64,000 nucleotides of DNA, from NCBI RefSeq assembly GCF_000744775.1, contig NZ_JQMP01000004.1:124001-188000 (forward strand). Reading direction: 5' to 3'. The translations under genes were made by a program, and so were the position numbers. Numbering within the stretch: position 1 is the first letter of the stretch; each line of letters starts with the position of its first letter. The notes under the pieces are model-generated. The model did no database searches and was not told where the DNA came from. It saw nothing but the letters and a program-made list of their open reading frames with translations. Below are positions 6,671 through 38,473 of this stretch, piece after piece. The stretch comes from Thermorudis peleae (GTDB taxonomy: Bacteria; Chloroflexota; Chloroflexia; Thermomicrobiales; Thermomicrobiaceae).

Positions 6671-6763
6671 TGTGGTTTTCGTGGAGGGGGATAGACATGC
6701 ACTGTTGTGACTGGTGGCGAGCACATCGCGAACACACCCTGGAGGGGAAAGGGGAGTATAGCC

Positions 6764-20798: not shown

Positions 20799-20899
20799 TC
20801 CCGTTGGCGCCATCGCCTCGGCAGTGATGGCGAAGCTTCCAGCGAAGTTGCCAGGCAGCACCCCGATCGCTTGTCGCCCCTGGGTGATCTCACAATGTG

Positions 20900-20938
20900 A
20901 GAGAACCCTCTTGCTCTTTGAGAGTTCTCTGCTATGCT
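20900..20938 (+). promoter_or_regulatory. Promoter and inverted repeat before the IclR regulator
   Basis: TTGCTC (20911-20916) and TATGCT (20933-20938) with a 16-base spacer. AGAGAAC (20900-20906) and GTTCTCT (20924-20930) form an inverted repeat flanking and overlapping it, a fit for autoregulation by the IclR protein. Confidence 0.5.
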
Positions 20939-20967
20939 CTCCTCGAAACGACGCAAGGACGGGGGCA

Positions 20968-21836: not shown

Positions 21837-22979
21837 ATGACGCGATCGACCTCAGTCATGCGCATTTCGGTGCTGAGTGTGCTCCTGCTCATCCTCAGCA
21901 TCCTTGCAAGTGCCTGTGGCGGTGCTGCAGCGACACCAACCCCCACAGCAGCGCCACGTGCGGCGACGTCACCAACCACGGCTGCGAGCACGAGCGCAAG
22001 CCCGACGGCTGCAGCGGCAAGTCCAACGAAAGCGGCCACGACCCCAACGACGATGGCAGCAGGCAAGCCATCGTATGACAAGCCCGTGCGTATTTCGTTC
22101 TCAACCTGGACGGGCTATGGACTGATCTGGCTGGCGAAGGATAAGGGCTTCTTTAAGCAGAACGGCATCGACGTGCAGATCCAACTGATTGAAAGTCCTG
22201 GCGAACGGTTCAACGCGTTAGCGGCCGGCTCGCTTGATGGCATGGCCTCTAGCCTCGATGCCTTCACCCGGGTTGGCGCCCAAGGCATTCCGGTTGTCCA
22301 AGTTGTCGGGCTCGATGAATCGCTGGGCGGCGATGGCATCGTGGCCAAGAAAGAGATTCAGAGCATCAAGGATCTGAAGGGCAAGACCGTTGCCGTGAAC
22401 ATCGGCTCGACCAGCCACTGGTTCCTGGCCAACGTGCTCGCCCAGAACGGCATGTCACTCAACGACGTCAAGATTCAGGACATGACGGCGGGCGACGCTG
22501 GCGCAGCGTTCGTGGCCGGCAAAGTCGACGCTGCAGTCACGTGGGAGCCCTGGCTCAGCCGCGCTCAAAAGACCGACTTTGGCCACACCCTGGTCACGAC
22601 CAAGGACTACCCCGGCTTGATCGTCGACACGTTCGGCTTCCGCCGAGATTTTGCCCAGCAGCATCCGGATGTTGTCGTCGCATTCCTCAAGGGCTTGGCC
22701 CAGGCTTATGATTACTGGCAGAAGAACCCAGATGACGCAATCCAGGTGATGGCCACGGAGTTCAAGCAGAAGCCAGAAGACGTCAAGGCTGATCTGCAGA
22801 CAATCAAGCTGTTCTCGATCGCTGACTCGAAGCAGTACTTTGGTACGCCACAAAACCCCGGACCGATCTACAAGGTGTCGGAGCAGATCGCAGACTTCTG
22901 GATGCAGATTAAGGTGATTGACAAGAAGCCAGACGTCAACCAGTTGATTGATCCATCCTTCTTGCAGCAGGTGTCGTAG
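21837..22979 (+). CDS. ABC importer substrate-binding lipoprotein, NMT1/SsuA type
   Basis: Extracellular binding protein of 380 residues. The signal ends ILASACGG (lipobox), followed by a linker of about 50 Ala/Thr/Pro/Ser residues. The binding domain begins RISFSTWTGYGLIWLAKDKG and has ERFNALAAGSLDGMASSLDA, GKTVAVNIGSTSHWFLANVL and KVDAAVTWEPWL, typical of the nitrate/sulfonate/taurine/pyrimidine-precursor family. GTGAGGAGG precedes the start. Permease and ATPase genes follow in the same operon, then hutH. The usual ligands of the family are small organic acids, amines or sulfonates; a histidine-related ligand is inferred only from context. Confidence 0.92.
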   Translation: MTRSTSVMRISVLSVLLLILSILASACGGAAATPTPTAAPRAATSPTTAASTSASPTAAAASPTKAATTPTTMAAGKPSYDKPVRISFSTWTGYGLIWLAKDKGFFKQNGIDVQIQLIESPGERFNALAAGSLDGMASSLDAFTRVGAQGIPVVQVVGLDESLGGDGIVAKKEIQSIKDLKGKTVAVNIGSTSHWFLANVLAQNGMSLNDVKIQDMTAGDAGAAFVAGKVDAAVTWEPWLSRAQKTDFGHTLVTTKDYPGLIVDTFGFRRDFAQQHPDVVVAFLKGLAQAYDYWQKNPDDAIQVMATEFKQKPEDVKADLQTIKLFSIADSKQYFGTPQNPGPIYKVSEQIADFWMQIKVIDKKPDVNQLIDPSFLQQVS

Positions 22980-23002
22980 GATACCGGAGAAAGGGCGTAC
23001 CC

Positions 23003-23902
23003 TTGTCACGCGACCGTACCGCCGCAAAGCTGGACGAAACAGCTGTCCCCGCAGGTTCCACCATACCTGCGGGGACAGCCGAGCAGCCGTTGCCACGCGA
23101 ATCGTGGGTGGCACGCTACCTAACGCCCAAGCGGAGCATTCCCAGCGGCGTCTACGCCATTGCATCAATGCTCGGCTTCCTGGGCGTACTGGCAGTTTGG
23201 TCAGCGCTGAGTTACAGCCATATCGTCGCCCCGCTCTTCTTGCCGACGCCGACCGAGGCACTCCGAGCACTCTGGGACTTGTTCATCCACTATGGCTTTC
23301 TGCGGGATGTTTGGGCGAGTACCTACCGCATCCTCGCCGGGTTTGCAATCGCGGCCGTTGTTGGCGTGCCACTCGGCGTCCTGATGGGCAGTTTCAAGCT
23401 GTTTGAGGCGCTGTTTGAGCGACTGATTGGCGTCATTCGCTACTTGCCAGCCTCTGCGTTCATCCCGCTCTTCATCTTGTGGATCGGTATTGGCGATGCC
23501 GAGAAGATCGCGGTCATCGTCTTTGGATCATTTTTCCCACTCGTCCTGCTGATTATGGACGTGGCCGCGAACGTGCCGCGCGATTTTCTCGACATTGCCT
23601 ACACCCTTGGGGCGTCACGCTGGCAGGTGTTCTGGAAAGTGCTGATTCCAGCGAGCCTGCCGGGAATTGTCGAAAGCCTGCGCACGATCCTTGGCTGGGC
23701 ATGGACCTACTTGATTGTTGCCGAACTCGTCGCCGCAGAAACAGGCATCGGTCACGTGATTTTGCAATCACAGCGCTACATTGAAACGCCGCGGATCATC
23801 GCGGGCATTGTCACCATTGGCGTGCTTGGGCTGATCAGCGACGCGCTCTTCAAGCTGCTGTATTCGTGGCTCTTCCCCTACGTTGAGAGGGTGAACCTGT
23901 GA
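23003..23902 (+). CDS. ABC importer permease, SsuC/TauC type
   Basis: Inner membrane permease of 299 residues with about six helices. The BPD_transp_1 domain has the EAA loop AYTLGASRWQVFWKVLIPASL and ends FPYVERVNL. The start is uncertain: TTG at 23003 has AAGGG 7 bases upstream, but the first 35 or so residues are hydrophilic and their DNA contains a perfect 15-bp hairpin (23042-23079). A start after the hairpin, for example GTG at 23105, lacks a ribosome site. Its end overlaps the ATPase start (GTGA). It works with the flanking binding protein and ATPase. Confidence 0.9.
   Translation: MSRDRTAAKLDETAVPAGSTIPAGTAEQPLPRESWVARYLTPKRSIPSGVYAIASMLGFLGVLAVWSALSYSHIVAPLFLPTPTEALRALWDLFIHYGFLRDVWASTYRILAGFAIAAVVGVPLGVLMGSFKLFEALFERLIGVIRYLPASAFIPLFILWIGIGDAEKIAVIVFGSFFPLVLLIMDVAANVPRDFLDIAYTLGASRWQVFWKVLIPASLPGIVESLRTILGWAWTYLIVAELVAAETGIGHVILQSQRYIETPRIIAGIVTIGVLGLISDALFKLLYSWLFPYVERVNL
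23042..23079 (+). promoter_or_regulatory. Perfect 15-bp hairpin at the binding-protein/permease junction
   Basis: GCTGTCCCCGCAGGT (23042-23056) pairs with ACCTGCGGGGACAGC (23065-23079) around an 8-base loop, 62 bases after the binding-protein stop. No T-run follows. It is well placed to block 3' decay of the upstream message or to lower downstream expression. Confidence 0.6.
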
Positions 23903-24699
23903 GCGATATCCGCATCGACCAGGTCGAAATGGTGTATCAGGCACGGCGCGGCACACCGCCCGTCGTCGCGCTCCAGGCTATTTCCATGACCGTGGCTGAT
24001 GGCGAGTTTGCCTGCATTGTTGGCCCCTCAGGATGTGGGAAATCGACGCTGCTCAAAGTCATTGCCGGGCTTGCACGACCAAGCAGCGGGCGCGTCTTGG
24101 TTGGCGGCCGTCCAGTGCTTGGCCCGGGGGCTGATCGTGGGATGGTTTTTCAGTCGTACACGCTCTACCCCTGGCTCAGCGTCCGCCGCAATATCGAGTT
24201 TGGGCTTGAATTGCGCGGGGTGCCGCGTGAAGAGCGGCAGCGCATCTCAAGTCGCTTGCTCACCCTGATGGGCTTGGATGGCTTTGCCGACGCGTATCCC
24301 AAGGCGCTTTCCGGCGGCATGCAACAGCGCGTTGCCATTGCCCGGGCGCTGGCCAACGATCCAGAGGTGCTGCTGATGGACGAGCCATTCGGTGCGCTCG
24401 ATGCGCAGACACGCACCGTGATGCAGGAGTTGTTAACCCAGATTTGGGAGCAGTATCACAAGACGGTTCTCTTCGTCACGCACGACATCGAGGAGGCCGT
24501 CTTCCTTGGCGATGTTGTCTACGTCATGACCGCTCGGCCAGGACGCATTCGCGCGCGTATTCCGATCGATCTGCCACGCCCCCGCACGTTTGAGACGATG
24601 ACCAGCGATGCATTCGCACGCTACCGCAACCAGATCCTCAGTCTCATCCATGAGGAGAGTCTGAAAGCCGCCCAGCTGCGCGTTCAAGAACCAGCTTGA
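23899..24699 (+). CDS. ABC importer ATPase, SsuB/TauB type
   Basis: ATPase subunit of 266 residues powering the importer. Walker A is GPSGCGKSTLLKV, the Q-loop is in GMVFQSYTLYPWL, the signature is ALSGGMQQRVAIARAL, and Walker B is VLLMDEPFGALDAQTR with the H-loop in LFVTHDIEEAVFLGD. The start is GTG at 23899, overlapping the permease stop by four bases. hutH begins 41 bases downstream on the same strand with no terminator between, so importer and hutH are probably one transcript. Confidence 0.95.
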   Translation: MSDIRIDQVEMVYQARRGTPPVVALQAISMTVADGEFACIVGPSGCGKSTLLKVIAGLARPSSGRVLVGGRPVLGPGADRGMVFQSYTLYPWLSVRRNIEFGLELRGVPREERQRISSRLLTLMGLDGFADAYPKALSGGMQQRVAIARALANDPEVLLMDEPFGALDAQTRTVMQELLTQIWEQYHKTVLFVTHDIEEAVFLGDVVYVMTARPGRIRARIPIDLPRPRTFETMTSDAFARYRNQILSLIHEESLKAAQLRVQEPA

Positions 24700-24740
24700 G
24701 CGGGGCGGTTCTGCCGGGAACAGAAGGAGGAATGAACGCT

Positions 24741-26282
24741 GTGCACACCGTGTGGCTCGGCCGTCAGCCGCTACGCCTCGACGATCTCGTCACAATCGCT
24801 GAACGGCCTGATGCAATCGACGTCCGCCTGGCGCCAGAAACGTCTGAGCGGCTCCAAGCCAAGCGCGCCCTCGTTGATCAGCTGAGCGATGAAGCCCGGC
24901 CGGTCTATGGTGTGACCACAGGATTCGGCGCACTTGCGCAAACGCGTATTCCGGCCCCGGCCCGTCGCGCGCTCCAGCACGCGCTGGTGCGATCACACGC
25001 TGCGGGGATGGGCGCACCGCTGCCACGCCCATTCGTACGGGCGATGATGCTTGCACGGGCCAACAGCCTCGCGCAGGGATACTCTGGCGTGCGTCCAGTC
25101 GTTATCGAGCAACTGCTTGCGCTCCTGCGCCATGACATTATCCCGTATGTGCCACGTTATGGCTCTCTGGGCGCAAGCGGTGACCTTGCTCCCCTTGCGC
25201 ACATTGCGCTGTGCTTGACTGGCGAAGGGTGGATCCTTGGGCCGGATAATACGCCACAACCAACCGCACCGGCACTGATTGCGCATGGTATTGAACCGCT
25301 GGCCCTCGAGGCCAAAGAAGGACTCGCCCTCGTCAACGGCACCGATGGCATGGCAGCCTTGCTCGCCCTCGCCTGTGCCGCCGCACGGCGTCTCTTCAAG
25401 ACGGCTGATGTGGCGTGTGCGATGAGCGTCGAAGCGCTTTTCGGCACTGATCGCCCCTTCGCGCCAGAGATCCAGGCGCTGCGCCCGCATCCGGGAGCAC
25501 TGGCAAGCGCGGCCAATATTCGCCGTCTCCTTGCCAACTCGGACATTGTGCGTTCGCACCGCGATTCGCCTCATCTCGTCCAGGATGCCTACTCACTGCG
25601 CTGCCACGCCCAGGTTGCCGGAGCGGCCCGTGACACGCTCACGTTTGCCGAGGATGTGCTGGGACGCGAACTCGGCGCGGCCGTCGACAATCCGGTTATA
25701 CTCGACGATGGGCGCGTTGAATCAACGGGCAACTTTCACGGCGAACCGCTCGCCTTTGCCGCCGACTTCCTCAGCATCGCGGTCGCTGAGATTGGCGCCA
25801 TTGCCGAACGACGCATTGACCGCCTGCTTGATCCAACACGCTCACAGGGGCTCCCAGCGTTCCTCACGCCGGAACCGGGGGTGAACTCCGGCCTGATGAT
25901 CGCCCACTACACAGCTGCGGCGCTCGCTGCTGAATGCCGGCGTCTGGCCCAGCCAGCGAGCGTGGAATCGCTGCCAACCTCCGCGATGCAAGAAGATCAC
26001 GTGTCGATGGGGTGGAATGCCGCGCTCAAACTGCACGAGGCACTCGACTGCTGCACACGCATTCTTGCCGTCGAAGTCCTTGCGGCAACCTACGGGCAGG
26101 TCTTCCGTCGCCCACTCGAGCCGGCAGCGGGGACCGGTGCGGTCGCCCAACTCGTTCTCGACCATGTGCCACCGCCCGGGCCAGACCTCTTCCTTGCGCC
26201 AATCTTAGCGACGGTCGAGGAACTGGTACGCGAAGGCGCGGTTCTCGCCGCGGCCGAACGCGCCATCGGCCCGCTGGCGTAG
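24741..26282 (+). CDS. hutH: Histidine ammonia-lyase
   Basis: Deaminates histidine to urocanate, the first step of the hut pathway. 513 residues from the GTG at 24741, which has AGGAGG 10 bases upstream; the ATG at 24732 is only one base from that site, so it is less likely. All lyase motifs are intact: Tyr in VYGVTTGFGALAQT, the MIO-forming Ala-Ser-Gly at residues 145-147 in GSLGASGDLAPLAH, ALVNGTDG, VQDAYSLRCHAQV, VDNPVI and the Glu in AMQEDHVSMGW. It follows the ABC importer. hutU and hutI lie 8 kb downstream, beyond an inserted block. Confidence 0.95.
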   Translation: MHTVWLGRQPLRLDDLVTIAERPDAIDVRLAPETSERLQAKRALVDQLSDEARPVYGVTTGFGALAQTRIPAPARRALQHALVRSHAAGMGAPLPRPFVRAMMLARANSLAQGYSGVRPVVIEQLLALLRHDIIPYVPRYGSLGASGDLAPLAHIALCLTGEGWILGPDNTPQPTAPALIAHGIEPLALEAKEGLALVNGTDGMAALLALACAAARRLFKTADVACAMSVEALFGTDRPFAPEIQALRPHPGALASAANIRRLLANSDIVRSHRDSPHLVQDAYSLRCHAQVAGAARDTLTFAEDVLGRELGAAVDNPVILDDGRVESTGNFHGEPLAFAADFLSIAVAEIGAIAERRIDRLLDPTRSQGLPAFLTPEPGVNSGLMIAHYTAAALAAECRRLAQPASVESLPTSAMQEDHVSMGWNAALKLHEALDCCTRILAVEVLAATYGQVFRRPLEPAAGTGAVAQLVLDHVPPPGPDLFLAPILATVEELVREGAVLAAAERAIGPLA

Positions 26283-26415
26283 CACTAACATTACGTAGCC
26301 TGCCCAGACTTTGCTTTACAGCACTGCAGCGATTCAGGAAGGAGGTGAACAGAAAGCAGAGCGAACCATCTTCCGCCAGATTTTCAGCTGATCGCTTGAT
26401 GATAAGGAGGGGAGA

Positions 26416-26895
26416 ATGCTGCGACCAATATCTCTTCCTCAGCATGCAGAAGAAGCAGAACGCCGTGCTTTTCTCCGACTTCGTCCACTGACGCCTTCCT
26501 ACCAGACAGCACCAATTACCACAGCATTCAACTGGGACGAAGCCCTCGCAGATATTGAAACAGGAGAATGGTACCTTGTCGTCTTCCGTTCCCAGCGCAA
26601 AACAACAGCAAACGAAGTCCTACTCACCGAGTTCGACGACGAAGCCTATGAAGAGGCGATGGCCACCGGCGGGTTACTCTGCTACTTCGCCGGAGAACTG
26701 GATGATGAACGATACTGCCTCTCATTCTGCGTCTGGCGTTCCCAGGCTGATGCGCAGCGGTCAGCTCGGTTGCCGAAGCACGCCCGCGCTGCGCAACTTG
26801 CGCCAGAGACCTATACATGGTTTGTCCTCGAGCGTTATCGGCTCTTTAAAGAAGCAGGTGACCCCAAAGTAAAGATTGAACCACTCATGTCCTGA
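26416..26895 (+). CDS. Hypothetical protein, possible dimeric alpha/beta-barrel (ABM-like) fold
   Basis: 159 residues, function unknown. A hydrophilic N-terminal part of about 45 residues is followed by GEWYLVVFRSQRK, then LLCYFAGELDDERYCLSFCV, RSQADAQRSARLPKHARAA and TWFVLERYRL. A beta strand, a helix with paired basic residues and a closing strand with WxxLERY recall small ABM/ferredoxin-like folds, but I cannot name a family. AGGAGG lies 5 bases before the ATG. It is the first gene of the lower-GC block and is followed by its own terminator at 26902. A role linked to amino acid catabolism is only suggested by position. Confidence 0.75.
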   Translation: MLRPISLPQHAEEAERRAFLRLRPLTPSYQTAPITTAFNWDEALADIETGEWYLVVFRSQRKTTANEVLLTEFDDEAYEEAMATGGLLCYFAGELDDERYCLSFCVWRSQADAQRSARLPKHARAAQLAPETYTWFVLERYRLFKEAGDPKVKIEPLMS

Positions 26896-26901
26896 CTCGG
26901 C

Positions 26902-26957
26902 GCTGGCCGGTAGCAGGCTGTATGCGGATGCATACCGGCCAGCACATTCTGTTTCTC
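26902..26957 (+). terminator. Rho-independent terminator after the hypothetical gene
   Basis: GCTGGCCGGTA (26902-26912) pairs perfectly with TACCGGCCAGC (26933-26943), with a 20-base loop. ACATTCTGTTTCTC follows as a T-rich tail. It separates the hypothetical gene from the peptide importer operon. Confidence 0.75.
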
Positions 26958-27005
26958 ACTATATGAGAATAGATTCTTGCATTGTAGATATTCACATCGC
27001 ATACT
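26953..27005 (+). promoter_or_regulatory. Operator-like palindrome and promoter for the peptide ABC/hut operon
   Basis: TTCTCA-CTATA-TGAGAA (26953-26969) is a perfect 6-bp inverted repeat. TTGCAT (26977-26982) and CATACT (27000-27005) with a 17-base spacer form a moderate promoter just after it. The first start codon is at 27081, so the transcript would have a leader of about 70 bases. Confidence 0.45.
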
Positions 27006-27080
27006 CATCGCAGTCCAGGGACGAGCCATCAAGGCATCCTGGCGAACACTAACCGGCATGCAGCACTCGAGGAGGAAGAT

Positions 27081-28799
27081 ATGTCCCGCGACGCTGAACT
27101 CCGTCAGAAACTTCATCCCATTGCAAATCATCTCATCGACGAATACCAGGCAGGCAGACTGACAAGACGAGAATTTGTTCGCCGCCTATCGGTATTGGGA
27201 ATTAATCTCTCCTTTGCCAACTTCCTTGCAAGCGCTTGTGGCGGTGGGCAGAACGCGGCGAGCCCAACAGCAGCGGTGCCACAAACGGGGTCACCTGCAC
27301 CACAACCAACGCTGAACGCCACGCCAGCAGGTGCTGGTACACCTGGCAGCGTCCCTGTCGTGCGAGCGGCAGTGTTCATGCCCGCTGGAAAGATTGACCC
27401 TATTACGATTGCGGATGAAGGTGGTCTTTGCTTACTTAGCCAGACAGGAGAATATCTCTGTTGGGCCGATGAGCAACTTAACCTTCGGCCAGAGCTTGCT
27501 ACGTCGTGGCAACCTAACGATAACGCGAGTGTCTGGACATTTACCCTGCGTCAAGGGGTAACATTCCACAACGGCAAGCCTCTTCGAGCCCAAGATGTTG
27601 TCGCCACCTTCAAGCGGCTCACCGATCCCAATAGTGGATCAAACGCCTTGTCAGCGTTTCAAGGAGTTATCACCCCGGATGGAATCAAAGCAAAAGATGA
27701 ATACACTGTTGTCTTCGAACTGCAACGACCGTTTAGTAATTTCCCATACCTGGTTAGCTCAGATAACTACAACACCATTATCCTGCCCGAAGAGTATGAT
27801 GGAAATTATGAGAGCACATTTATTGGTACCGGAGCGCTCAAGCTTAAGGAATATCAGCCACGTAGCAAGGCTGTCTTCGTCCGCAATCCAACGTACTGGG
27901 GTAAACCAGCAATTCCTGATATGGTGGAGTTACGATTCTACGAAGACGAGAGCGCGCGCATTCTTGCCTTCCAAGGTCGCGAAGTCGACGTCGTAACCCA
28001 TGTCACTGCATCCAATGGGCAACCGCTTTTCAAGGATTCAACGACCCAAATGATTGAATTCTCATCCACCACCCATCTCCAGGTGCATATGCGTACCGAC
28101 ACCAAGCCCTTTGATGACCGCCGCGTACGACAAGCAATAGCTTTGCTACTCGATCGACCTGCAATCATCAACGGAATTTTGCTTGGCAAAGCTGATATCG
28201 GGAACGATCATCCGTTTGCCCCTGTGTACCCGTCAACTGACAAGACTGTCGCGCAGCGGCAGCAAGATCTCGCCAAAGCCCGGAGCTTGCTCCAGGCAGC
28301 TGGGTATGGTGACGGCTTCTCGATCAAGCTCGTGAGCTGGCGTGGACTGGCTATTCCAGACCTTGCCGCAGTTATTCAGCAGGCAGCCCAGCAAGTTCGT
28401 ATTCGTATCGATATTGAATTAACCGATGCTGGTACCTACTATGGCAAAGCGGTCTTTGGGGAATCACCTTGGCTTGATTCGACACTTGGTATCACTGATT
28501 ATGGACACCGCGGTGCGCCGGACGTCGTTCTCCGGGCAGCCCTTCGGAGTGACGGTGTCTGGAATGCTGCACATTTCAAAAATACCACCTACGACCGACT
28601 TGTTGACGACTATGCGGCGGCAACCGATCTGCAGCGGCAACGACAAATCGCGAAAAATATTGAAGAACTCCTTCTTGAAGAAACCCCGCTCCTTATTACG
28701 TTCTTTGAACGCTACTTGATCGCTGCACGGCGCGGATTAAGTGGAATCGAACCGGGAGCAGTTGGCCATCTGCGTCTGGCTCATGCGCGCTTTAGCTAG
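27081..28799 (+). CDS. Oligopeptide-type (family 5) ABC substrate-binding lipoprotein
   Basis: Extracellular binding protein of 572 residues. The N-terminus has TRREFVRRLSVLGINL and the lipobox LASAC, with a short Pro/Ala/Thr linker. The SBP_bac_5 domain shows ATSWQPNDNASVWTFTLRQG, VTFHNGKPLRAQDVVATFKR and RRVRQAIALLLDRPAIINGI, all family hallmarks. Family ligands include di- and oligopeptides, nickel complexes and opines. GAGGAAG precedes the ATG. Base composition is clearly less GC-rich than the flanking genes. It heads an operon with two permeases, a double ATPase and a HutH-like protein, so the ligand may be a histidine-containing peptide or analogue (inference). Confidence 0.92.
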   Translation: MSRDAELRQKLHPIANHLIDEYQAGRLTRREFVRRLSVLGINLSFANFLASACGGGQNAASPTAAVPQTGSPAPQPTLNATPAGAGTPGSVPVVRAAVFMPAGKIDPITIADEGGLCLLSQTGEYLCWADEQLNLRPELATSWQPNDNASVWTFTLRQGVTFHNGKPLRAQDVVATFKRLTDPNSGSNALSAFQGVITPDGIKAKDEYTVVFELQRPFSNFPYLVSSDNYNTIILPEEYDGNYESTFIGTGALKLKEYQPRSKAVFVRNPTYWGKPAIPDMVELRFYEDESARILAFQGREVDVVTHVTASNGQPLFKDSTTQMIEFSSTTHLQVHMRTDTKPFDDRRVRQAIALLLDRPAIINGILLGKADIGNDHPFAPVYPSTDKTVAQRQQDLAKARSLLQAAGYGDGFSIKLVSWRGLAIPDLAAVIQQAAQQVRIRIDIELTDAGTYYGKAVFGESPWLDSTLGITDYGHRGAPDVVLRAALRSDGVWNAAHFKNTTYDRLVDDYAAATDLQRQRQIAKNIEELLLEETPLLITFFERYLIAARRGLSGIEPGAVGHLRLAHARFS

Positions 28800-28812
28800 T
28801 TGAGGATACGCG

Positions 28813-29778
28813 ATGCGCTGGATTCGACAGTACGGCATACCCCTTCTCCGTCGCCTGGGCAGTAGTGTGCTGACACTTTGGCTCATTACGATCGTTGTCT
28901 TTGCCATGACGAATGTACTGCCCGGAGATGTAGCACGGCGCATTCTTGGCCCGTTTGCTGATGAACGAGCAGTTGCAGCATTAAACCATCAGCTTGGCAC
29001 TGATCGCCCTCTTCCTGAGCAATACATTCATTGGCTCAGCCGGTTAGCTCACGGTGATCTTGGAACATCGCTCGCGATGCGCCGGCCTGTCGCGCAACTG
29101 CTGCTTCCAGCCCTAGCCAATTCAGCAAAATTAGCCGGTAGTGCTCTGCTTGTTATCCTTCCCCTGAGCATTTTTCTCGGGCTCGTCGCTGCATTTTCCG
29201 AGGGCAAGGCTCTTGATTTTCTTATCCGTCTAAGCGGACTGGTCACGACGGTACTGCCTGAATTCGTGACAAGCATTGCTGTTATCTTGCTGTTTGCCAT
29301 TGCGATCCCGCTCTTTCCGGTCACAGCCGTTGCCCCACCTCACAGTAGCCTACCTACTCAAATCTACTACCTGATCCTGCCAATTACGCCAGTCACCTTA
29401 GTCCTTGTTGGATATCTCTGTCGGGTTATGCGAAGCAGTGCCGTCGAGATACTGCATACGAACTATATTCGCGCCGCAGAGTTGAAAGGCCTTTCTCGCT
29501 GGCGCCTCTTGTTCTGGCATCTCCTGCCGAACGCGCTTCCACCCGTCATTGCTGTTACTGCCAATCAGCTGGGGTACCTTCTTGGTGGCTTGGTCGCGAT
29601 TGAGGCTGTCTTTAACTACCCAGGTTTGGGTCAACTCCTTTTAACCGCCGGGCGACAAAAAGACTTCCCTGTCCTGCAATCGGGGGTTCTCCTGGTCGGT
29701 CTGACCTACGTGCTTGCCAACACGTTCGCCGATCTCCTCTACTGGCTTCTGAATCCTCGACTGCGTGAAAGGGGGTAA
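28813..29778 (+). CDS. ABC permease, DppB type
   Basis: Inner membrane permease of 321 residues. The N-terminal helix (SSVLTLWLITIVVFAMTNVL) and the following PGDVARRILGPFADERAVAAL are typical of DppB. LNHQLGTDRPLPEQYIHWL comes next, and the EAA loop is YIRAAELKGLSRWRLLFWHL. The C-terminus is LLNPRLRERG. The ATG at 28813 has GAGG 8 bases upstream, 13 bases after the binding-protein stop. It pairs with the DppC-like protein just downstream. Confidence 0.93.
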   Translation: MRWIRQYGIPLLRRLGSSVLTLWLITIVVFAMTNVLPGDVARRILGPFADERAVAALNHQLGTDRPLPEQYIHWLSRLAHGDLGTSLAMRRPVAQLLLPALANSAKLAGSALLVILPLSIFLGLVAAFSEGKALDFLIRLSGLVTTVLPEFVTSIAVILLFAIAIPLFPVTAVAPPHSSLPTQIYYLILPITPVTLVLVGYLCRVMRSSAVEILHTNYIRAAELKGLSRWRLLFWHLLPNALPPVIAVTANQLGYLLGGLVAIEAVFNYPGLGQLLLTAGRQKDFPVLQSGVLLVGLTYVLANTFADLLYWLLNPRLRERG

Positions 29779-29783
29779 TTTTC

Positions 29784-30623
29784 GTGGTGGTACTCCTGGT
29801 CTCCTCTTCTCATTACCGTCAGGCATGGCATTGGCTTCGACAGCACCCGGTTTTTCTCTGTGGCTTCTTGCTGGTGGCATTCTGGGCATGCTGTGCCATG
29901 GCTTTCCCGCTCCTTGCACCGTATGATCCCTATGCGGTTGACCCTCTTCACCGACTCAATCCGCCATCAGCGAGCCATTGGCTTGGTACAGACCGACTGG
30001 GACGTGACGTACTTAGCCGAATCCTCGGTGGAGCACGCGAGGTTTTTCTTATTGCCCCCATCGCCTCATTTCTCGGCACGCTAGCTGGCACCCTTCTTGC
30101 TCTGATTGGTGGATACTGGGGAGGTCTCGTCGATGAAGCGCTTAACCGTATCGCCGACGCGCTTCTGGCGATTCCCCTAATTCTCCTTGGGCTACTGATT
30201 TTGACTGCCGTAGGTCCTTCACGTATCGCAGTGATTTTGGTTATTGCAGCAATTTTCACACCGCTCGTTATGCGCACTATTCGATCAGCTGTCCTCAGCG
30301 AGCGAGAGAAAGACTATGTACAGCTCGCGCTTCTTCGGGGAGAAAGTCCATGGTACATCTGCGTCAGAGAAATCCTCCCAAACGTCTTTCACCTTGTGAT
30401 TATCGAATTCACCACACGAACGGGATATGCCATTTTTACCAGCGCAACCCTATCGTTCCTTGGACTTGGCCTTCAACCGCCTTCGTCTGAGTGGGGAGTG
30501 ATCATATTCGAGCACTACAGCTTTCTGTCTGCGGGTATCTGGTGGCCTGTTGTGTTTCCAGCATTCGCAATCTCGAGTCTCATCATTGGGTTCACTTTCC
30601 TAGCCGAAGGGTTGAATTTATGA
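29784..30623 (+). CDS. ABC permease, DppC type
   Basis: Second permease, 279 residues. It has PLLAPYDPYAVDPLHRLNPP, the DppC hallmark HWLGTDRLGRDVLSRILGGA, and an EAA loop region reading YVQLALLRGESPWYICVREI. The start is GTG at 29784 with AGGGGG 8 bases upstream. The C-terminus is shorter than in many DppC proteins and ends FTFLAEGLNL. It overlaps the ATPase start by four bases (ATGA), so translation is coupled. Confidence 0.92.
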   Translation: MVVLLVSSSHYRQAWHWLRQHPVFLCGFLLVAFWACCAMAFPLLAPYDPYAVDPLHRLNPPSASHWLGTDRLGRDVLSRILGGAREVFLIAPIASFLGTLAGTLLALIGGYWGGLVDEALNRIADALLAIPLILLGLLILTAVGPSRIAVILVIAAIFTPLVMRTIRSAVLSEREKDYVQLALLRGESPWYICVREILPNVFHLVIIEFTTRTGYAIFTSATLSFLGLGLQPPSSEWGVIIFEHYSFLSAGIWWPVVFPAFAISSLIIGFTFLAEGLNL

Positions 30624-32689
30624 CAACTGTCCGCTCATCGCCTGTTCTTCATCTTGATCAACTCACTGTCGACTATCGCGTCGATGGTGAGTGGCGACTG
30701 GCGCTCACAAACATCTCACTGTCAATCGCTCCTGGTGAAACCTATGGACTTGTTGGAGAGTCTGGGAGCGGCAAAACAACACTTGCTGCGGCTGTCGCTG
30801 GCTTCTTGCCTAAAAACAGTCGCATACGCGGCGGTCACATCTACGTTCTTGATCATGATGTCACGCGATACTCTCGACGTGAATGGCAACGCCTCTGGCG
30901 TCATACTCTTGCGGTTGTGTTCCAAAACCCAGGGGCAAGCCTCAACCCCGCCCTGCGCATTCAAACCCAGCTCGCTGAGTCATTTCGCGCAGCAGGGTTG
31001 ACCGGCCCTGACGTTTATGCCTCGATGATCAGCCTTTTAGAACAGCTTCGCCTTCGTGATCCGAAGCGAGTGCTTACGAGCTATCCCCATCAATTGTCCG
31101 GAGGAATGCAACAGCGTGTTGCAATTGCCATTGCCCTTGCACGACAACCATCACTACTCATCCTTGATGAGCCAACGACAGGACTCGATGCAACTGTTGC
31201 GGCCGACGTTCTCGAGTTGATTAGTGAGCTACAGACGCAATACCGAACGGCCATCCTTTTCATCTCGCACGACCTCCATGCTGTGGCGCGAACCTGCAAT
31301 CGAGTCGGCGTTCTTTATGCTGGCCGTCTGGTCGAAGAAGGCCCCGTGCAGGAGATTGTGAATCACCCAAGCCACCCATATACGGTGAGCTTGCTCCGAT
31401 GTCTCCCTCGTTTTGGCATGCGAAAGACTCAACAGCAACTGTTGAGTTTACCAGGAGATCCAATCGCTGCCTGGCAAGTTCTTCAGGGATGTGCCTTTGC
31501 CAGCCGCTGCTATGCGGCAGCACCACTGTGTGCTGACCAGTCCCCGGCAGCACATTTTGTTTCCCGAGAGCACTATAGCGTCTGCCACTTCGCCCCGCAT
31601 CTTCCCCCCCCACCGGTCAACTCGCGTACTGCCAGCACGCAACAGCCTTCATTACCAAGCCCTTCTCACAAGACTGCACCTCTGCTCACACTTGAACGTG
31701 TGAGGAAAACTTACGAGAGACAAGGACACAAGACACTTGCGGTTAATCACGTGTCCTTCTCTCTGGCCGCAGGAGAAACTATTGGTCTTATCGGCGAGTC
31801 CGGCAGCGGAAAGTCAACTCTTGCTCGTATTATTGTCGGCTTGCAGTCCCCTGACGCTGGCAGCCGTCTTGTATTTGATGGACAACCGCTTGCCGACCGT
31901 GTTCGCCAACGGAGTGCTTCGCAGCGTCAGCGCGTGCAACTTATCTTTCAAAATCCAGAACTCGTTCTTAACCCTCGACGTCGTATTGGCGACATCCTTC
32001 ACCGCGCGATCGTCAAACTAGGAAGCCAACGCGGCGCGGCTGCTCATGCAGCTGTTCGTAGTCTGGCCCAACAGGTGCAGTTTCCCCTCCATCTCTTGCA
32101 AGCACGTCCAGCGGCAATTTCTGGTGGACTCAAACAACGAGCGGCGATCGCTCACGGATTAGCCGGCCATCCACAATTGCTCGTCCTTGATGAACCCACT
32201 TCATCGCTTGACGTTTCAACTCAAGCTGCGATTCTGAACCTCCTTGTTGATCTGCAACAACAGACATCCATGGCGTACCTCTTCATCTCGCACGATCTTG
32301 CACTCGTGCATTACATAGCCGACCGGATCATCGTCTTGTTCGCCGGATCAGTCATGGAATGCATCCCGGCAGACTACCTCTTTGACGCTCCGCTACACCC
32401 CTATACCGCGGCACTCTTGACAAGTGGTCTACGGCAGAACGTGGCAATTCGTGCCAGCGAACATCAAGCATTGACGCTTACACCTTCACCTGAGGGCTGT
32501 CCGTATGTTCAGCAGTGCCCTCTTGCTATTCCTGGCATTTGCGACCAACAGTTTCCGCCTTGTCAAGAACCACAACGTAATCACCAAATTTTTTGCCACG
32601 CTCCACTCGAGCATCTCCCACGCATCACGCGAGTAGCGGAATCAGAAAACAGCATAACGCTTATTTTTCCCCATGCGAATGAGAGGTAA
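30620..32689 (+). CDS. Fused double ABC ATPase (DppD-DppF fusion)
   Basis: 689 residues with two complete nucleotide-binding domains in one chain. Domain 1: Walker A GESGSGKTTLAA, signature LSGGMQQRVAIAIAL, Walker B LLILDEPTTGLDA, H-loop LFISHDLHAVAR, then the oligopeptide-type C-terminal Cys region (GCAFASRCYAAAPLC). A Ser/Pro-rich linker of about 30 residues follows. Domain 2: Walker A GESGSGKSTLAR, signature ISGGLKQRAAIAHGL, slightly off consensus, Walker B LLVLDEPTSSLD and its own Cys-rich tail (CPYVQQCPLAIPGICD). Two DppB/C permeases precede it, so one polypeptide replaces the usual DppD plus DppF. Confidence 0.93.
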   Translation: MTTVRSSPVLHLDQLTVDYRVDGEWRLALTNISLSIAPGETYGLVGESGSGKTTLAAAVAGFLPKNSRIRGGHIYVLDHDVTRYSRREWQRLWRHTLAVVFQNPGASLNPALRIQTQLAESFRAAGLTGPDVYASMISLLEQLRLRDPKRVLTSYPHQLSGGMQQRVAIAIALARQPSLLILDEPTTGLDATVAADVLELISELQTQYRTAILFISHDLHAVARTCNRVGVLYAGRLVEEGPVQEIVNHPSHPYTVSLLRCLPRFGMRKTQQQLLSLPGDPIAAWQVLQGCAFASRCYAAAPLCADQSPAAHFVSREHYSVCHFAPHLPPPPVNSRTASTQQPSLPSPSHKTAPLLTLERVRKTYERQGHKTLAVNHVSFSLAAGETIGLIGESGSGKSTLARIIVGLQSPDAGSRLVFDGQPLADRVRQRSASQRQRVQLIFQNPELVLNPRRRIGDILHRAIVKLGSQRGAAAHAAVRSLAQQVQFPLHLLQARPAAISGGLKQRAAIAHGLAGHPQLLVLDEPTSSLDVSTQAAILNLLVDLQQQTSMAYLFISHDLALVHYIADRIIVLFAGSVMECIPADYLFDAPLHPYTAALLTSGLRQNVAIRASEHQALTLTPSPEGCPYVQQCPLAIPGICDQQFPPCQEPQRNHQIFCHAPLEHLPRITRVAESENSITLIFPHANER

Positions 32690-32694
32690 GCTGT

Positions 32695-34152
32695 ATGCTT
32701 AGGTTAGGTGAACAATCGCTTACAATTCAGGACGTTGTCCGCGTTGCTGTTCAACACGAACCAGTTTCGTTGGCTCCCTCAGTGATCAATCGCGTCCAGC
32801 AAGCCTGGGAGATTACCCAAGCATGTGCTCAGGATGGGACGCCTCTCTACGGGATCACTACGGGCGTTGGGGCACTTCGTGATCAGACAGTGGCGGGTGA
32901 AGTACAGCAGCAGTTTAACCAGCGATTACTTTGGTCTCACAGTGTTGCCTCCGGTGAATGGAGTTCAGTTGAAGCCGGGAGAGCTGCATTACTGTGTCTT
33001 CTCAATCAGCTCAGTACGGGTTTCGCCCCAATTCGTCCACAAACGCTCATGGTCATTGTCGAGGCACTTAACACCCAAATTCCTCTACGATTTCGACTGA
33101 GTGGCTCTATCGGCGCATCTGATCTTGCTGCCAATGCTGACCTCGTCAGCCCTCTTTTTACCACAGTCCCTCTCTACCCAGGTGAAGGTCTTATCCTCCT
33201 TAACCACACTAGTCCGACAATTGGTCTCGCCAGTCTGGCAATTTGGGAAACACAAAAACTACTTCGTGCGGGCGAACTTGTTCTTGCAACAAGCTTAGAG
33301 GCGTTTGGAGCAAACCTCGGTGCATATCATCCCGCTATTGCGCAGGCTCGACACTCGGCTATGCTCGCCTCGACCATGCGTCGACTCACCGCACATCTCG
33401 AAGGAAGCCAGCTCTGGAATAGTGGCACCGCACGAATGCTGCAGGATCCGCTTTCGTTCCGCTGTGGAGCACAACTCTTCAGTACGGCGTGGGAATCTCT
33501 GGCTACGGCAACCGACTACGTGATCCGCTGGCTGAATACCTATCATGGCAACCCAATGGTTATTCCAGAAGAGCGTCGGCTGGTGTCGTGCGGCAATTTT
33601 GAATCAGCTGATATCAGTACTGCGCTTGATTACCTCCGCTGCGCGCTTGTGCCGTTACTGCAAGCCTCAGCCGAGCGTAGCACGAAATTGTTGAATTCGC
33701 CCTGGTCTGGCTTGCCTACAGGCCTTACCACCGTCACAACGCTTCCCGATTCTGGATATGCCATCCTTGAAATCGCTGCGCATGCATTGGTTACCGAAGC
33801 CCGCACGCTCGCTGCCCCCGTCGCGCTTGAGCCGGTAAGTGGCGCCATTGCTGCAGGGATTGAGGATCGTGGTTCCTTTGCTCTACTCGCAGCTCGTCGT
33901 CTCGTTGAGCAACTTGAGATTGCTTGGAGGATCATCAGCATCGAACTACTTGTTTCCCATCATGCACTCCTTCTGCGGCGTCCAGTGCGGATTGGCAAGA
34001 GCATTCAGTCCCTGCAAAACGCGCTTCTGGACGAGGGCATTACCCAAGAGGTCTCCGATTCTCCAGCTGACCAACTCATTCGCGTCCGCCGCTGTCTCCA
34101 CTCGTGGTTTGATCAGAGCACGGAAGTACCGCAAGGAACGGAGGGATTTTGA
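32695..34152 (+). CDS. HutH-like aromatic amino acid lyase paralogue lacking the canonical MIO triad
   Basis: 485 residues, homologous end to end with HutH. The catalytic-loop Tyr is kept ([12 protein letters not shown]). Where HutH has Ala-Ser-Gly-Asp, this protein reads [14 protein letters not shown], so the Gly of the MIO-forming triad is gone (residues 141-143 are Ala-Ser-Asp). The usual QDxYSxR is QDPLSFR (Tyr to Leu) and QEDHVSM is replaced by IEDRGSF. NGT has become NHT. It therefore either makes no MIO or uses altered chemistry. GAGAGG lies 8 bases before the ATG, 5 bases after the ATPase stop, and its stop overlaps the hutU start (TGATG). Pseudomonas hut loci also carry a second HutH paralogue near transporter genes, whose role is unclear to me. 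Confidence 0.85.
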
Positions 34153-35852
34153 TGAGTAAGTTGCCACCAGGGCCACGGGTTGTGCGAGCGCCACGCGGCA
34201 GCGAGCTGCACTGCCGCGGCTGGGAACAGGAAGCGGCGCTGCGCATGCTCATGAACAACCTTGATCCAGACGTCGCGGAGCGGCCTGATGAGTTAATCGT
34301 GTACGGCGGAAGCGGCAAGGCCGCGCGATCATGGGAAGCGTTTGACGCCATCGTGCGCGAACTGCAGCAACTCGGCGATGACGAGACGCTCGTCGTCCAA
34401 AGCGGCAAGCCCGTTGCGGTCTTCCAGACACATCCTGACGCACCACGCGTCCTCATCGCAAACGCCCTCCTCGTACCACACTGGGCGACGGCCGCTGAAT
34501 TCGACCGGCTCGCCGCGCTCGGGCTGACTATGTATGGCCAAATGACGGCCGGCTCATGGATCTACATCGGGACACAAGGCATTCTGCAGGGAACATATGA
34601 AACGTTCGCTGCGGTCGCGCGTCAGCACTTTGGCGGAACACTGCGTGGCCGGCTCGTTGTCACCGCTGGACTTGGCGGGATGGGCGGCGCGCAGCCTCTG
34701 GCCGTGACAATGAACGAAGGCGTCGCGCTCTGTATCGAAGTTGATCCTGCCCGCGCTGAGCGGCGGCACGCACTCCGGTATGTCGATCGCGTAACAGCAA
34801 ACCTCGATGAGGCAATCCGCTGGGCTGAAGACGCGCGTCGCGCTGGCCGCCCACTCAGCATCGCGCTGATCGGCAACGCAGCCGAGGTGCACCACGCACT
34901 CCTGGCGCGCAACCTTCGGGTCGACGTCGTCACCGACCAGACGCCCGCACACGAACCGTGTGACTACGTTGCCGAGGGCCTCTCACCGGAAGAAGCCCGG
35001 GCCCTCGCCAAAGCTGATCCTGAGGACTACCGCCAGCGCGCACGACAGAGCATGGCAAAGCACCTACGCGCGATGGTCGAATGGCAGCGGCGTGGCGCCA
35101 TTGTCTTCGACTATGGGAATAATCTCCGGGCGCAGGGTGAGCTTGGGGGCGTGCCCCATGAGGAAGCCTTTAGCTACCCAGGCTTCGTCCCAGCCTATAT
35201 CCGGCCGCTCTTCTGTGAGGGCAAGGGCCCGTTCCGTTGGGTAGCGCTGTCAGGGGATCCAGAGGATATTTACCGCACGGACGAAGCGATTGCTGAACTC
35301 TTCCCCGAAAACACGAGCCTGCGACGCTGGTTGGAAATGGCCCAAGAGCGTGTCGCTTTCCAGGGTCTGCCAGCCCGCATCTGCTGGCTCGGCTATGGCG
35401 AGCGTGACAAGGCCGGCCTGCTCTTCAACGACCTTGTGCGCCGCGGGGTGCTCAAAGGGCCAATCGTGATTGGCCGCGACCACCTCGACGCCGGATCGGT
35501 GGCATCACCATACCGTGAGACTGAAGCCATGCGCGATGGCTCGGACGCGATTGCCGACTGGCCGATCCTCAATGCACTGCTCAATACTGCTGCAGGCGCG
35601 AGCTGGGTCAGTGTCCATCACGGGGGCGGTGTCGGCATCGGCTACTCGATTCACGCTGGGATGGTCGTTGTTGCTGATGGGAGTGAGCGCGCTGCGCGGA
35701 AGCTGGCACGCGTCCTGCGTACTGATCCTGGGATGGGCGTGGTTCGCCACGCCGACGCAGGCTATGCTCGCGCGCTTCGCACAGCTCGGGCAATGGGCAT
35801 CCGTCTTCCCTCGCCTCCAACGGTCCCGCCTGAGCCAGAAACGGAGGCGTAG
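34152..35852 (+). CDS. hutU: Urocanate hydratase
   Basis: Converts urocanate to imidazolonepropionate using tightly bound NAD. 566 residues, the normal size. Motifs include [48 protein letters not shown], the Gly-rich NAD site [14 protein letters not shown] and, near the C-terminus, [20 protein letters not shown]. The ATG at 34152 shares its A with the stop codon of the HutH-like gene. GC returns to the regional norm here after the lower-GC block. hutI starts four bases downstream. Confidence 0.97.
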
Positions 35853-35855
35853 ATC

Positions 35856-37142
35856 GTGGGCCAGCGCGTTGCCCACCTCCTGGTTGTCCACGCCGCTGAG
35901 CTCGTTACGCTCGCCGGCCCACCCGGTCCGCGTGCCGGTGCGGCCCAGTCGCAGCTTGCGATTGTCGAAGACGGCGCCGTCGCGATTGGCGCTGACGGCC
36001 GCATCATAGCGGTTGGGCCAACAGCGCACGTGCGCGACGAGGTCACGCTTGCCCCTGATGCGCTCGTCCTCGATGCCCATGGGCGGACCGTGCTACCCGG
36101 CTTTGTTGATCCACATACCCATGCGGTGTTTGCAGGAGACCGTGTTGCCGAATTTGAGCAGCGGCTCGCCGGAGCTGACTATTTGGCGATTCTTGCTGCC
36201 GGTGGCGGCATTCTCCAGACCGTGCGTGCGACTCGCGCTGCCTCGTTTGATGACCTCTTCACACGAGCCGATCACGTGCTTGACCGTATGCTCCTTGCCG
36301 GCACAACCGCGCTCGAAATCAAGACAGGCTATGGCCTGAATACGGAAACTGAACTAAAGCAGCTTCGTGTCATTGCTCAACTCGCGCAGCAGCGTCCGCA
36401 GGCGATTGTTGGCACGCTGCTTGCCGCCCACGCTGTTCCGCCAGAATTCCATGGCGACCCTGATGCCTACGTGGACGTGGTCTGCACGGAGACCATTCCA
36501 GCTGCGGCTACACTCGGGATTGCCCGATTCTGCGACGTGTTCTGTGAAGCCGGCGTCTTCTCGGTCGAACAAGCACGCCGGGTGCTTGAAGTCGGGCTGC
36601 GTTACGGGCTGCGTCCCAAGCTGCACGCCGAACAAAAGCATCACCTCGGCGGCGCTCAGCTTGCGGCGACGCTCGGTGCTATCAGCGCCGACCACCTTGA
36701 ATATGCTGAGGACACGGATCTGGTTGCCATGCGCGATGCTGGCGTGATCGCCGTATTGCTCCCCGGCGCAGCCTTTTTCTTACGAGAACAGCGGCACGCG
36801 CCAGCTCGGCGCATGGTCGAACTCGGTGTGCCTGTCGCGCTCGGGACCGATTTCAATCCAGGCTCGAGCCCAATCTGGTCAATGTCCCTGGCGATTGGCC
36901 TCGCCTGTCTCGAGCAAGGACTTACGCCAGCAGAAGCGATTGTGGCTGCCACCATCAACGCTGCCTACGCGATCGGTCTTGGGGAATCTCACGGCAGCCT
37001 TGAGCCGGGCAAATATGGCAATCTCGTCATCCTCGACGCGCCAAGCTACCGCTACCTTCCCTATTACTTTGGCGCGCCACTCGTCGACACCGTTGTTCTC
37101 AACGGGCAGGTTGTGGTACAGGAAGGACGGCTTTGCCGATGA
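35856..37142 (+). CDS. hutI: Imidazolonepropionase
   Basis: Metal-dependent amidohydrolase that opens imidazolonepropionate to formiminoglutamate. 428 residues. The metal site begins LPGFVDPHTHAVFAGDRVAE, then EIKTGYGLNTETELKQL, AAHAVPPEF, KLHAEQKHHLGGAQLAA and VALGTDFNPGSSP, all characteristic. The start is GTG at 35856 with GGAGG 8 bases upstream. The next gene overlaps its stop (ATGA). It is part of hutU-hutI-hutF-like. Confidence 0.97.
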   Translation: MGQRVAHLLVVHAAELVTLAGPPGPRAGAAQSQLAIVEDGAVAIGADGRIIAVGPTAHVRDEVTLAPDALVLDAHGRTVLPGFVDPHTHAVFAGDRVAEFEQRLAGADYLAILAAGGGILQTVRATRAASFDDLFTRADHVLDRMLLAGTTALEIKTGYGLNTETELKQLRVIAQLAQQRPQAIVGTLLAAHAVPPEFHGDPDAYVDVVCTETIPAAATLGIARFCDVFCEAGVFSVEQARRVLEVGLRYGLRPKLHAEQKHHLGGAQLAATLGAISADHLEYAEDTDLVAMRDAGVIAVLLPGAAFFLREQRHAPARRMVELGVPVALGTDFNPGSSPIWSMSLAIGLACLEQGLTPAEAIVAATINAAYAIGLGESHGSLEPGKYGNLVILDAPSYRYLPYYFGAPLVDTVVLNGQVVVQEGRLCR

Positions 37143-38473
37143 CGTGGATTCTTGCCCCTGAACTGCTGCTCGATGGCCTCGAGGCACGAGCAGGCTGGGG
37201 CATCGCGATTGATCACGGGACGATTGTCGCGCTTGGCCCGGTAGCAGCACTCCAGGCAGCACATCCTGGCGCAACGACGACGGCAGCCCCTGGCATGCTT
37301 GCAGTGCCAGGGACGATCAATGCGCACAGCCACTCCTTTCAGTCGCTCTTACGTGGCTTAGGAGACGATCAGCCATTCAACGCGTGGCGCCACGTTCTGT
37401 ATCACTTTATGCCGCGTCTTGATGAAGAGGGCGTCTACACCGCCGCGCTCTTTGCCTTCGCGGAGATGCTGCGGGGCGGCATCACGACGGTCTGTGATTT
37501 CTTCTACCTGCACCACGGCGGCAACGCCCACGATCTTGCCGTCGCCCAAGCTGCGCGCGACCTCGGTATTCGTCTTGTGCTCGGGCGCACGATGATGGAC
37601 TGGCACGTCGCGCCGGCAGCGTTCCGCGAGACGGTCGAGCAAGCCGTGACGAACGGTCGCGCGTTAGCGGCTGCCCTGCAAGGCGATCCGCTCGTTACGG
37701 TCATTCCCGCGCCGCACAGTCCACATGGCGCGTCCGGTGAGATGATTCAAGCTGGGGCGCGGCTCGCGGCTGAATGGCAAACGCCCTGGCACATCCATGT
37801 CGCCGAAGCGCCGTACGAAGGAGCGGAGACACGCCGCCGCTATGGCTGTGGCCCGCTGGCCTGGATCGCTCAACTCGGCGCGCTTGATGAACGGATCCGG
37901 ATTGTTCACGGTGTCTGGCTCGAGGACGAGGAGATCGCCGCTCTTGGTCGCGCCGGAGGAGGCTTAATTCATTGTCCCGGATCCAACCTGTTCCTTGGGG
38001 ACGGCATCGCACCGGTGCCGAAATACCTGCAGGCCGGGGTTACCGTTACCCTTGGCTGTGACAGCGGCTCAGCAAACAATCGGCTTTGTCTCTTTGACGA
38101 GATGCGCCTTGCCGCCACATTGCAGAAAGGGCTGGCTGGCAATGGCGCAGCGCTCACCGCCACCGATGTTTTCATGATGGGCACAGCCAACGGTGAGCAT
38201 GTGACCGGCCTGCCGGTTGGCAAACTTGCTCCAGGGTACCGCGCGGACATCGTGCTGCTTCGCCTGCGCGACCTGTCCCTCCAACCGCCGCATGATCTTG
38301 TCCGCAACCTGGTGTATGCGCTTAACCATCGAGCAATCGCCTCTGTCTATGTCAACGGCGAGCTGGTTGTTCGTGACGGGCTGCTCGTTCGGGTACCCGA
38401 AGAGCAGATCGTCGCCCGGGTGCGAGCGTTGACCGAGGCGTGGGCACACGAAGCAGCCCAGATCCTATCCTGA
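37139..38473 (+). CDS. Amidohydrolase, probable formimidoylglutamate deiminase (HutF-like)
   Basis: 444 residues, amidohydrolase superfamily. The metal site is VPGTINAHSHSFQSLLRG, with CDFFYLHHGG, WHIHVAEAP, IVHGVWL and LGCDSGSANN. HSHxFQ followed by a Phe-Tyr-x-His-His segment resembles HutF, which turns formiminoglutamate into formylglutamate and ammonia. The operon position directly after hutI supports this. Guanine or adenosine-type deaminases of the SsnA/TrzN group remain possible. No hutG gene is in the window, so the last step would be encoded elsewhere. The ATG at 37139 overlaps the hutI stop by four bases. Confidence 0.75.
   Translation: MTWILAPELLLDGLEARAGWGIAIDHGTIVALGPVAALQAAHPGATTTAAPGMLAVPGTINAHSHSFQSLLRGLGDDQPFNAWRHVLYHFMPRLDEEGVYTAALFAFAEMLRGGITTVCDFFYLHHGGNAHDLAVAQAARDLGIRLVLGRTMMDWHVAPAAFRETVEQAVTNGRALAAALQGDPLVTVIPAPHSPHGASGEMIQAGARLAAEWQTPWHIHVAEAPYEGAETRRRYGCGPLAWIAQLGALDERIRIVHGVWLEDEEIAALGRAGGGLIHCPGSNLFLGDGIAPVPKYLQAGVTVTLGCDSGSANNRLCLFDEMRLAATLQKGLAGNGAALTATDVFMMGTANGEHVTGLPVGKLAPGYRADIVLLRLRDLSLQPPHDLVRNLVYALNHRAIASVYVNGELVVRDGLLVRVPEEQIVARVRALTEAWAHEAAQILS

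Follow-up and report, generated by a model that had tools for sequence, protein, structure and literature searches.

Known systems and the locus

Histidine ammonia-lyase (HutH, or HAL) needs the electrophile 4-methylideneimidazole-5-one (MIO) since ammonium is a poor leaving group, and ergothionase can do without MIO since trimethylamine departs readily. Ergothionase itself, the ergothioneine trimethylamine-lyase of Treponema denticola (PDB 6S7J and 6S7Q), is described as an enzyme that lacks MIO and releases trimethylamine (PMC13405746). Here we analyzed a 7.9-kb block in the genome of Thermorudis peleae (contig NZ_JQMP01000004.1; "the window" is the 64,000-nucleotide stretch from position 124,001 to 188,000, and coordinates below are window positions), which fills the exact interval from hutH to hutU on the + strand (26283-34151) and carries a small gene, a complete ABC importer and an aromatic-lyase-family protein that almost certainly belongs to the non-MIO branch that includes ergothionase.

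Comparison with these described systems revealed both likenesses and differences. Ergothionase and the block lyase share the aromatic-lyase fold without the MIO triad, but are only 23% identical and fall in separate clades; the block lyase stands with a canonical urocanase, whereas ergothionase stands with thiourocanate hydratase, and their importer families differ. HutH, as defined by model TIGR01225, shares with the block lyase its Pfam family, its fold and a position directly before hutU, and differs from it in that the block protein lacks the Ala-Ser-Gly triad and Tyr280 and scores far under the model cut-off. Ergothioneine utilization genes (thiourocanate hydratase, thiohydantoin desulfurase, ErtD and ErtE of NCBIfam) likewise come with an importer, in some loci of the same importer clade, and with a non-MIO lyase that precedes a hydratase of the urocanase family, whereas the window has no desulfurase, ErtD or ErtE and has hut enzymes instead. 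The importer has the full set of parts seen in Opp, Dpp and Nik systems (SBP_bac_5, two BPD_transp_1 permeases, OppD- and OppF-type ATPases), but its ATPases are fused in one chain and its substrate-binding protein (SBP) clusters with those of importers from lyase and methylamine loci. The parts are thus of known kinds, and their combination, an ergothionase-branch lyase in a hut operon, is undescribed in the open-access literature that we searched, in which we also found no description of a hercynine lyase.

The block lyase and its relatives

The lyase gene (32695-34152, +) had been called HutH-like in a first-pass annotation of this DNA, a label that failed on the features that define HutH. 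Against TIGR01225 the protein reached 232.9 bits (cut-off, 539.15), its MIO triad is broken by the absence of the glycine (GAS-DL, against GASGDL in the adjacent hutH), the loop that follows the triad is shorter, another residue stands in place of Tyr280 of HAL (LQDPLSFR), and the NFHG and QEDH motifs read NFES and IEDR. Alignment comparison showed the LQDPLSFR, NFE and IED signatures to be common to the block lyase, T. denticola ergothionase, which aligns with it in one stretch, and related loci (n = 79) that a single scan across 84,980 species yielded. Conservation of LQDPL among these loci was partly built into the scan patterns; loss of the triad glycine was not, and it was found in every related locus whose sequence covers the site.

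Structure and phylogeny gave the same placement. The AlphaFold model of the lyase is confident (pLDDT, the predicted local distance difference test, 92.8), and its best PDB match by Foldseek was ergothionase 6s7j with a template-modelling score of 0.90, HAL following narrowly behind. In a careful tree of 45 rows, the non-MIO branch separated from HutH with support of 100/100, and the block lyase lay on the non-MIO side, where sequences from Actinomycetota and Chloroflexota form a well-supported clade with it. Tree and motifs together ruled out a HutH paralogue that arose by local duplication.

Evaluating the surroundings of the related lyases, for which gene maps came from a simple open reading frame (ORF) picker and contain some spurious ORFs, revealed three recurring types of locus. 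Ergothioneine-type loci carried thiourocanate hydratase or near relatives, thiohydantoin desulfurase and ErtD- or ErtE-type hydrolases (L107, L115, L119, L121, L134 and L137-L141). Two separate lineages paired a non-MIO lyase with canonical urocanase and a true HutH nearby. In the one (L092, L097, L099), urocanase, HutF and HutI all stood beside the lyase in L092 and L099 and part of the set in L097, as also in L095, with an OpuA-type betaine importer in L092. In the other (L120, L122), the same three genes were present with a peptide-deformylase-like gene between lyase and HutF; these Acidimicrobiales hut clusters, comprising urocanase, non-MIO lyase, the peptide-deformylase-like gene, a HutF-like gene and HutI, span L120:8272-14527 and L122:7338-13602. 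A true HutH (GASGDL) was found nearby in L097 and L120, adjacent on the opposite strand in the latter, so the non-MIO lyase there is not simply doing the job of HutH. Membership of the block lyase in either the L092-type or the L120-type hut-linked clade was rejected by the approximately unbiased (AU) test.

The clade to which the block lyase does belong had other neighbors, namely MttB-type trimethylamine methyltransferase, MetE-like and BHMT-like methyltransferases, a protein like sarcosine oxidase or trimethylamine N-oxide demethylase, enolase-superfamily and alcohol-dehydrogenase genes, and OpuA- or Opp-type importers. Such neighbors suggest that the clade acts on quaternary amines and that trimethylamine is the leaving group, and a quaternary amine is probably the substrate of the block lyase as well.

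Some further observations concern other parts of the family. In L089 (4239-8563), three MttB-family genes lie in a row, two genes upstream of the non-MIO lyase. A further non-MIO subfamily with GASDL and GNFHP motifs stands beside thiourocanate-hydratase-like genes (L209:11749-13290, - strand; L113:2547-4529), and L113 carries two different non-MIO lyases. Rhizobium and other alphaproteobacterial loci (L096, L098, L100, L101, L103, L105, L109, L111, L112, L114) have V-M-D-R for I-E-D-R, so that the equivalent of HAL Glu414 is lost, and stand beside an IclR regulator and ABC genes with no urocanase.

The importer, orf159 and a recurring module

The remaining block genes, all on the + strand, agree with the gene content first proposed, a small gene and a complete importer beside the aromatic-lyase-family protein. 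The small gene, orf159 (26416-26895), encodes 159 amino acids with a predicted ABM-like dimeric alpha+beta-barrel fold (AlphaFold pLDDT 88; Foldseek matches to ABM structures); the Pfam ABM model matched only weakly, in orf159 homologues and not in the window copy. The importer is complete for family 5 and runs in one series of genes: a family-5 SBP (27081-28799; PF00496, 260 bits), OppB/NikB-type (28813-29778) and OppC/NikC-type (29784-30623) permeases identified by profile matches, and a fused OppD-OppF double ATPase (30620-32689) that overlaps the OppC-type gene as ATGA, its start read from the sequence, with two ABC_tran stretches and oligo_HPY. Scores for the SBP and permeases lay far under all equivalog cut-offs and assigned no known substrate class. 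The earlier description of a peptide-type importer applies to the protein family alone; the surroundings of its relatives suggest quaternary amines and not peptides.

These relatives recur beside lyases. The SBPs most similar to that of the window are found in L078, L084 and L070, and two of these loci have the SBP gene starting about 140 bp from the lyase. In a sample of 301 genomes of the phylum, the five best matches to the window SBP came from G163, G271, G247, G095 and G251. The importer of G271 lies next to a non-MIO lyase that is accompanied by ErtD-like and thiourocanate-hydratase-like genes, that of G247 lies on one contig with a lyase about 10 kb away, the cluster of G095 holds another, degenerate aromatic-lyase-family gene, G251 has its importer with MttB and orf159, and G163 has its lyases on contigs other than that of the importer. 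SBPs of these five genomes and of the L loci formed one clade with the window SBP (Shimodaira-Hasegawa-like approximate likelihood ratio test, 98), apart from background family-5 proteins, and 7 of the 35 loci of the block lyase's clade, versus 1 of 44 other loci, had a related SBP no more than 5 kb from the lyase. In L077, L082, L123, L034 and L135, an orf159 homologue and the lyase are separated by roughly 0.15-1.1 kb, and orf159 also accompanies the importer in G095 and G251. Because these relatives recur linked, we regard importer, orf159 and lyase as traveling partners: the block is a recurring traveling module, which extends the transport-plus-lyase module of the first reading.

The degenerate protein of G095 (L201:4735-6414, - strand) is a second kind of aromatic-lyase-family member, with DLGSAGE in place of the ASGD of the MIO motif and a relative at L083:4029-5579; it is accompanied by orf159 and an importer of the same type, and of HutH and the ergothionase branch, HutH is the nearer to it.

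Insertion into an existing hut operon

The edges of the block coincide with gene ends. The hutH stop codon (TAG) ends at 26282, and the hutU ATG at 34152 overlaps the lyase stop as TGATG, both as the first-pass annotation had placed them. Its contrast in guanine-plus-cytosine (GC) content, about 51% against about 67%, was right in kind, and the flank value was too high: the block is 53.3% GC versus 61.1% in the left flank and 63.0% in the right, and the sliding profile drops from 61-63% to about 53% where hutH ends and recovers where hutU begins. GC at third codon positions (GC3) was 0.49-0.53 in the in-frame block genes, a range that excludes the fused OppD-OppF gene, versus 0.69 +/- 0.037 (minimum 0.61) in 34 other genes of the window. 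Sampling about 0.44 Mb of the same genome made the contrast moderate. None of 91 equal-length tiles (mean 59.8%, standard deviation [SD] 3.4%) was as low in GC as the block, yet its z score is only -1.9, and a GC3 of at most 0.53 occurs in 6.6% of the sampled genes, or about 1 in 15. Composition, which we downgraded as proof of transfer after this sampling, is therefore supportive of acquisition and not decisive on its own.

Comparison with relatives carries more weight. G016, of the same family, presents the empty site, with a hutH-hutU gap of 42 bp, and keeps the order IclR, SsuA-type SBP, permease, ATPase, hutH, hutU, hutI and HutF-like at 68-93% identity; nucleotide similarity between it and the window stops near 26200 and restarts at 34170. 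Five further relatives also have hutH and hutU together with no block between them (6 of 6 such relatives), and G007 has hutH on a separate contig (loci L145 and L149) from hutU-hutI-HutF-like, beside which stands an orf159 homologue (69%). No counterpart of the lyase-like gene was found in 60 genomes of the family and order, where the protein search gave HutH-type matches only, and gene trees of the block genes led to Actinomycetota and to distant Chloroflexota; the lyases and SBPs nearest to those of the block belonged to other phyla or distant families. The empty site, the absence from family and order and the gene trees, rather than composition, are why we favor horizontal gain, as had first been suggested, and very probably the block was gained by insertion into an existing hut operon. 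Relatives and compositional spread had been named at the outset as what should decide the matter; the relatives lack the block, and the composition is only moderately unusual genome-wide.

Of the expression signals first proposed, neither the terminator after the small gene nor a promoter could be confirmed. A strong hairpin follows orf159 (about 26902-26945, +; -29.5 kcal/mol, z -3.15) with no T-run, and a consensus scan gave no sigma-70 promoter. Around the block, Rfam gave no match to a riboswitch or any other known RNA, no recombinase or other mobility gene is among the block genes, and no tRNA was found in the window.

Proposed route and its alternatives

We propose that this cassette of ABM-like orf159, family-5 importer and non-MIO lyase, placed between the native hutH and hutU, imports a histidine betaine, most likely hercynine (N-alpha-trimethylhistidine), from which the lyase would eliminate trimethylamine to give urocanate. 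No MIO electrophile would be needed, as trimethylamine is already a good leaving group, and the urocanate would be degraded by the native HutU-HutI-HutF route, such that HutH and the new lyase would supply one urocanase from two substrates. PMC3826126 reports histidine betaine from the cyanobacterium Synechococcus sp. PCC 7002. EgtD was not found in the T. peleae genome, which leads us to set aside synthesis of hercynine by the host and to suggest that it scavenges the compound; MttB was likewise not found in the genome, so that disposal of trimethylamine by that enzyme was rejected and the amine may be excreted or used otherwise.

This proposal rests on the loss of MIO, on a lyase that directly precedes and overlaps a canonical urocanase, and on importer relatives at betaine-lyase loci. 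Urocanate is somewhat favored as the product, and for hercynine itself as the substrate, which draws on operon position, the importer link and the same pairing in two other lineages (not its own clade, by the AU test), we judge the case evenly balanced, as we do for the whole sequence of import, elimination and entry into HutU. Several observations weigh against it. The weakest point is that the lyase's own clade mostly lacks a nearby urocanase (35 loci), together with the strong divergence of this copy, whose branch is very long (1.95) and whose nearest identity is 41%, so that its specificity may differ or the gene may be decaying. In addition, the importer belongs to a peptide/nickel family and not to a known betaine family, and the genome offers no MttB to use the trimethylamine.

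The alternative that survives best, although we consider it unlikely, is that the lyase acts on a non-histidine betaine, for example that of an aromatic amino acid, which may also be true of other members of its clade, and that the hut operon was merely an expressed landing site. Same-clade relatives with MttB, enolase-superfamily and alcohol-dehydrogenase genes, usually with no urocanase, fit such a substrate; the insertion nevertheless falls at the lyase-to-urocanase step with overlapping genes, the importer clade includes the ergothioneine-type locus of G271, and a lyase of this kind is paired with canonical urocanase in two other lineages. Ergothioneine or S-methyl-ergothioneine, with thiourocanate handled by HutU or lost, is a decidedly improbable substrate. 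Ergothionase is the nearest solved fold, and the G271 importer relative stands with thiourocanate-hydratase-like and ErtD-like genes, but the window hydratase is a canonical urocanase (933 bits on TIGR01228, against 648 on the thiourocanate hydratase model, whose cut-off is 930) and the block has no thiohydantoin desulfurase, ErtD or ErtE.

Very improbable, too, is a catalytically dead protein that regulates or partners HutH, or whose gene is decaying, beside a peptide importer that feeds HutH. The long branch would suit it, as would a divergent NHT where the clade has its N-N/S-N-A-F motif, but the ORF is intact, the fold is confident, the near-invariant residues of the superfamily are all kept, the gene overlaps hutU and its partners recur. 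We give very little credence to the view that the family had the block ancestrally and that every sampled relative has lost it: heterogeneous genomic GC, against which the block is only 1.9 SD low, and the orf159 homologue of G007 would agree with it, but the 60 family and order genomes without lyase relatives, the six relatives without the block and the distant origin of the nearest lyases and SBPs speak against it. That the lyase is an ordinary histidine ammonia-lyase, a second one, next to a peptide importer would fit its Pfam family and fold, both shared with HutH, but is hardly credible for a protein that lacks the MIO triad and Tyr280, scores 233 bits against a cut-off of 539 and falls outside the HutH clade.

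Returning to the hercynine route, a dedicated arrangement of importer, non-MIO lyase and ordinary urocanase may have arisen separately in three or more bacterial lineages by addition of an ergothionase-branch lyase to hut genes with HutH kept, a suggestion that we make tentatively.

Native hut genes and other features

The genes around the block, all on the + strand, are those of the operon seen in G016. Upstream lie an IclR-type regulator (20824-21753; Pfam IclR_C and HTH_IclR; 68% in G016) and an SsuA/NMT1-type ABC importer of SBP, permease and ATPase (21837-24699; same order in G016, 70-85%), which heads the hut operon, so that the operon now has two importers. The true MIO-type hutH (24696-26282; GASGDL) scored 621 bits on TIGR01225 (cut-off, 539), starts at TTG 24696 or ATG 24732 and is 77% identical to that of G016. 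Downstream of the block come hutU (34152-35852; 92% in G016), hutI, encoding imidazolonepropionase (35856-37142; TIGR01224, 474 bits), and a HutF-like amidohydrolase (37133-38473) akin to formimidoylglutamate deiminase models, under their cut-offs, and conserved in G016. Elsewhere in the window, at positions 7001-8000, over an ORF at 6707-8482, the AT skew is unusually strong (0.52) and the GC skew is negative.

Implications

If the hercynine route is true, the textbook histidine pathway would gain, through the hut operon of T. peleae, a second point of entry, open to a betaine of fungi, actinobacteria and cyanobacteria, and the lyase would be a new biological source of trimethylamine. For the wider family, annotations of 'HutH-like' would then hide a diverse set of cofactor-less lyases that act on quaternary amines, and the one-residue gap in the MIO motif would be the mark by which these may be recognized.

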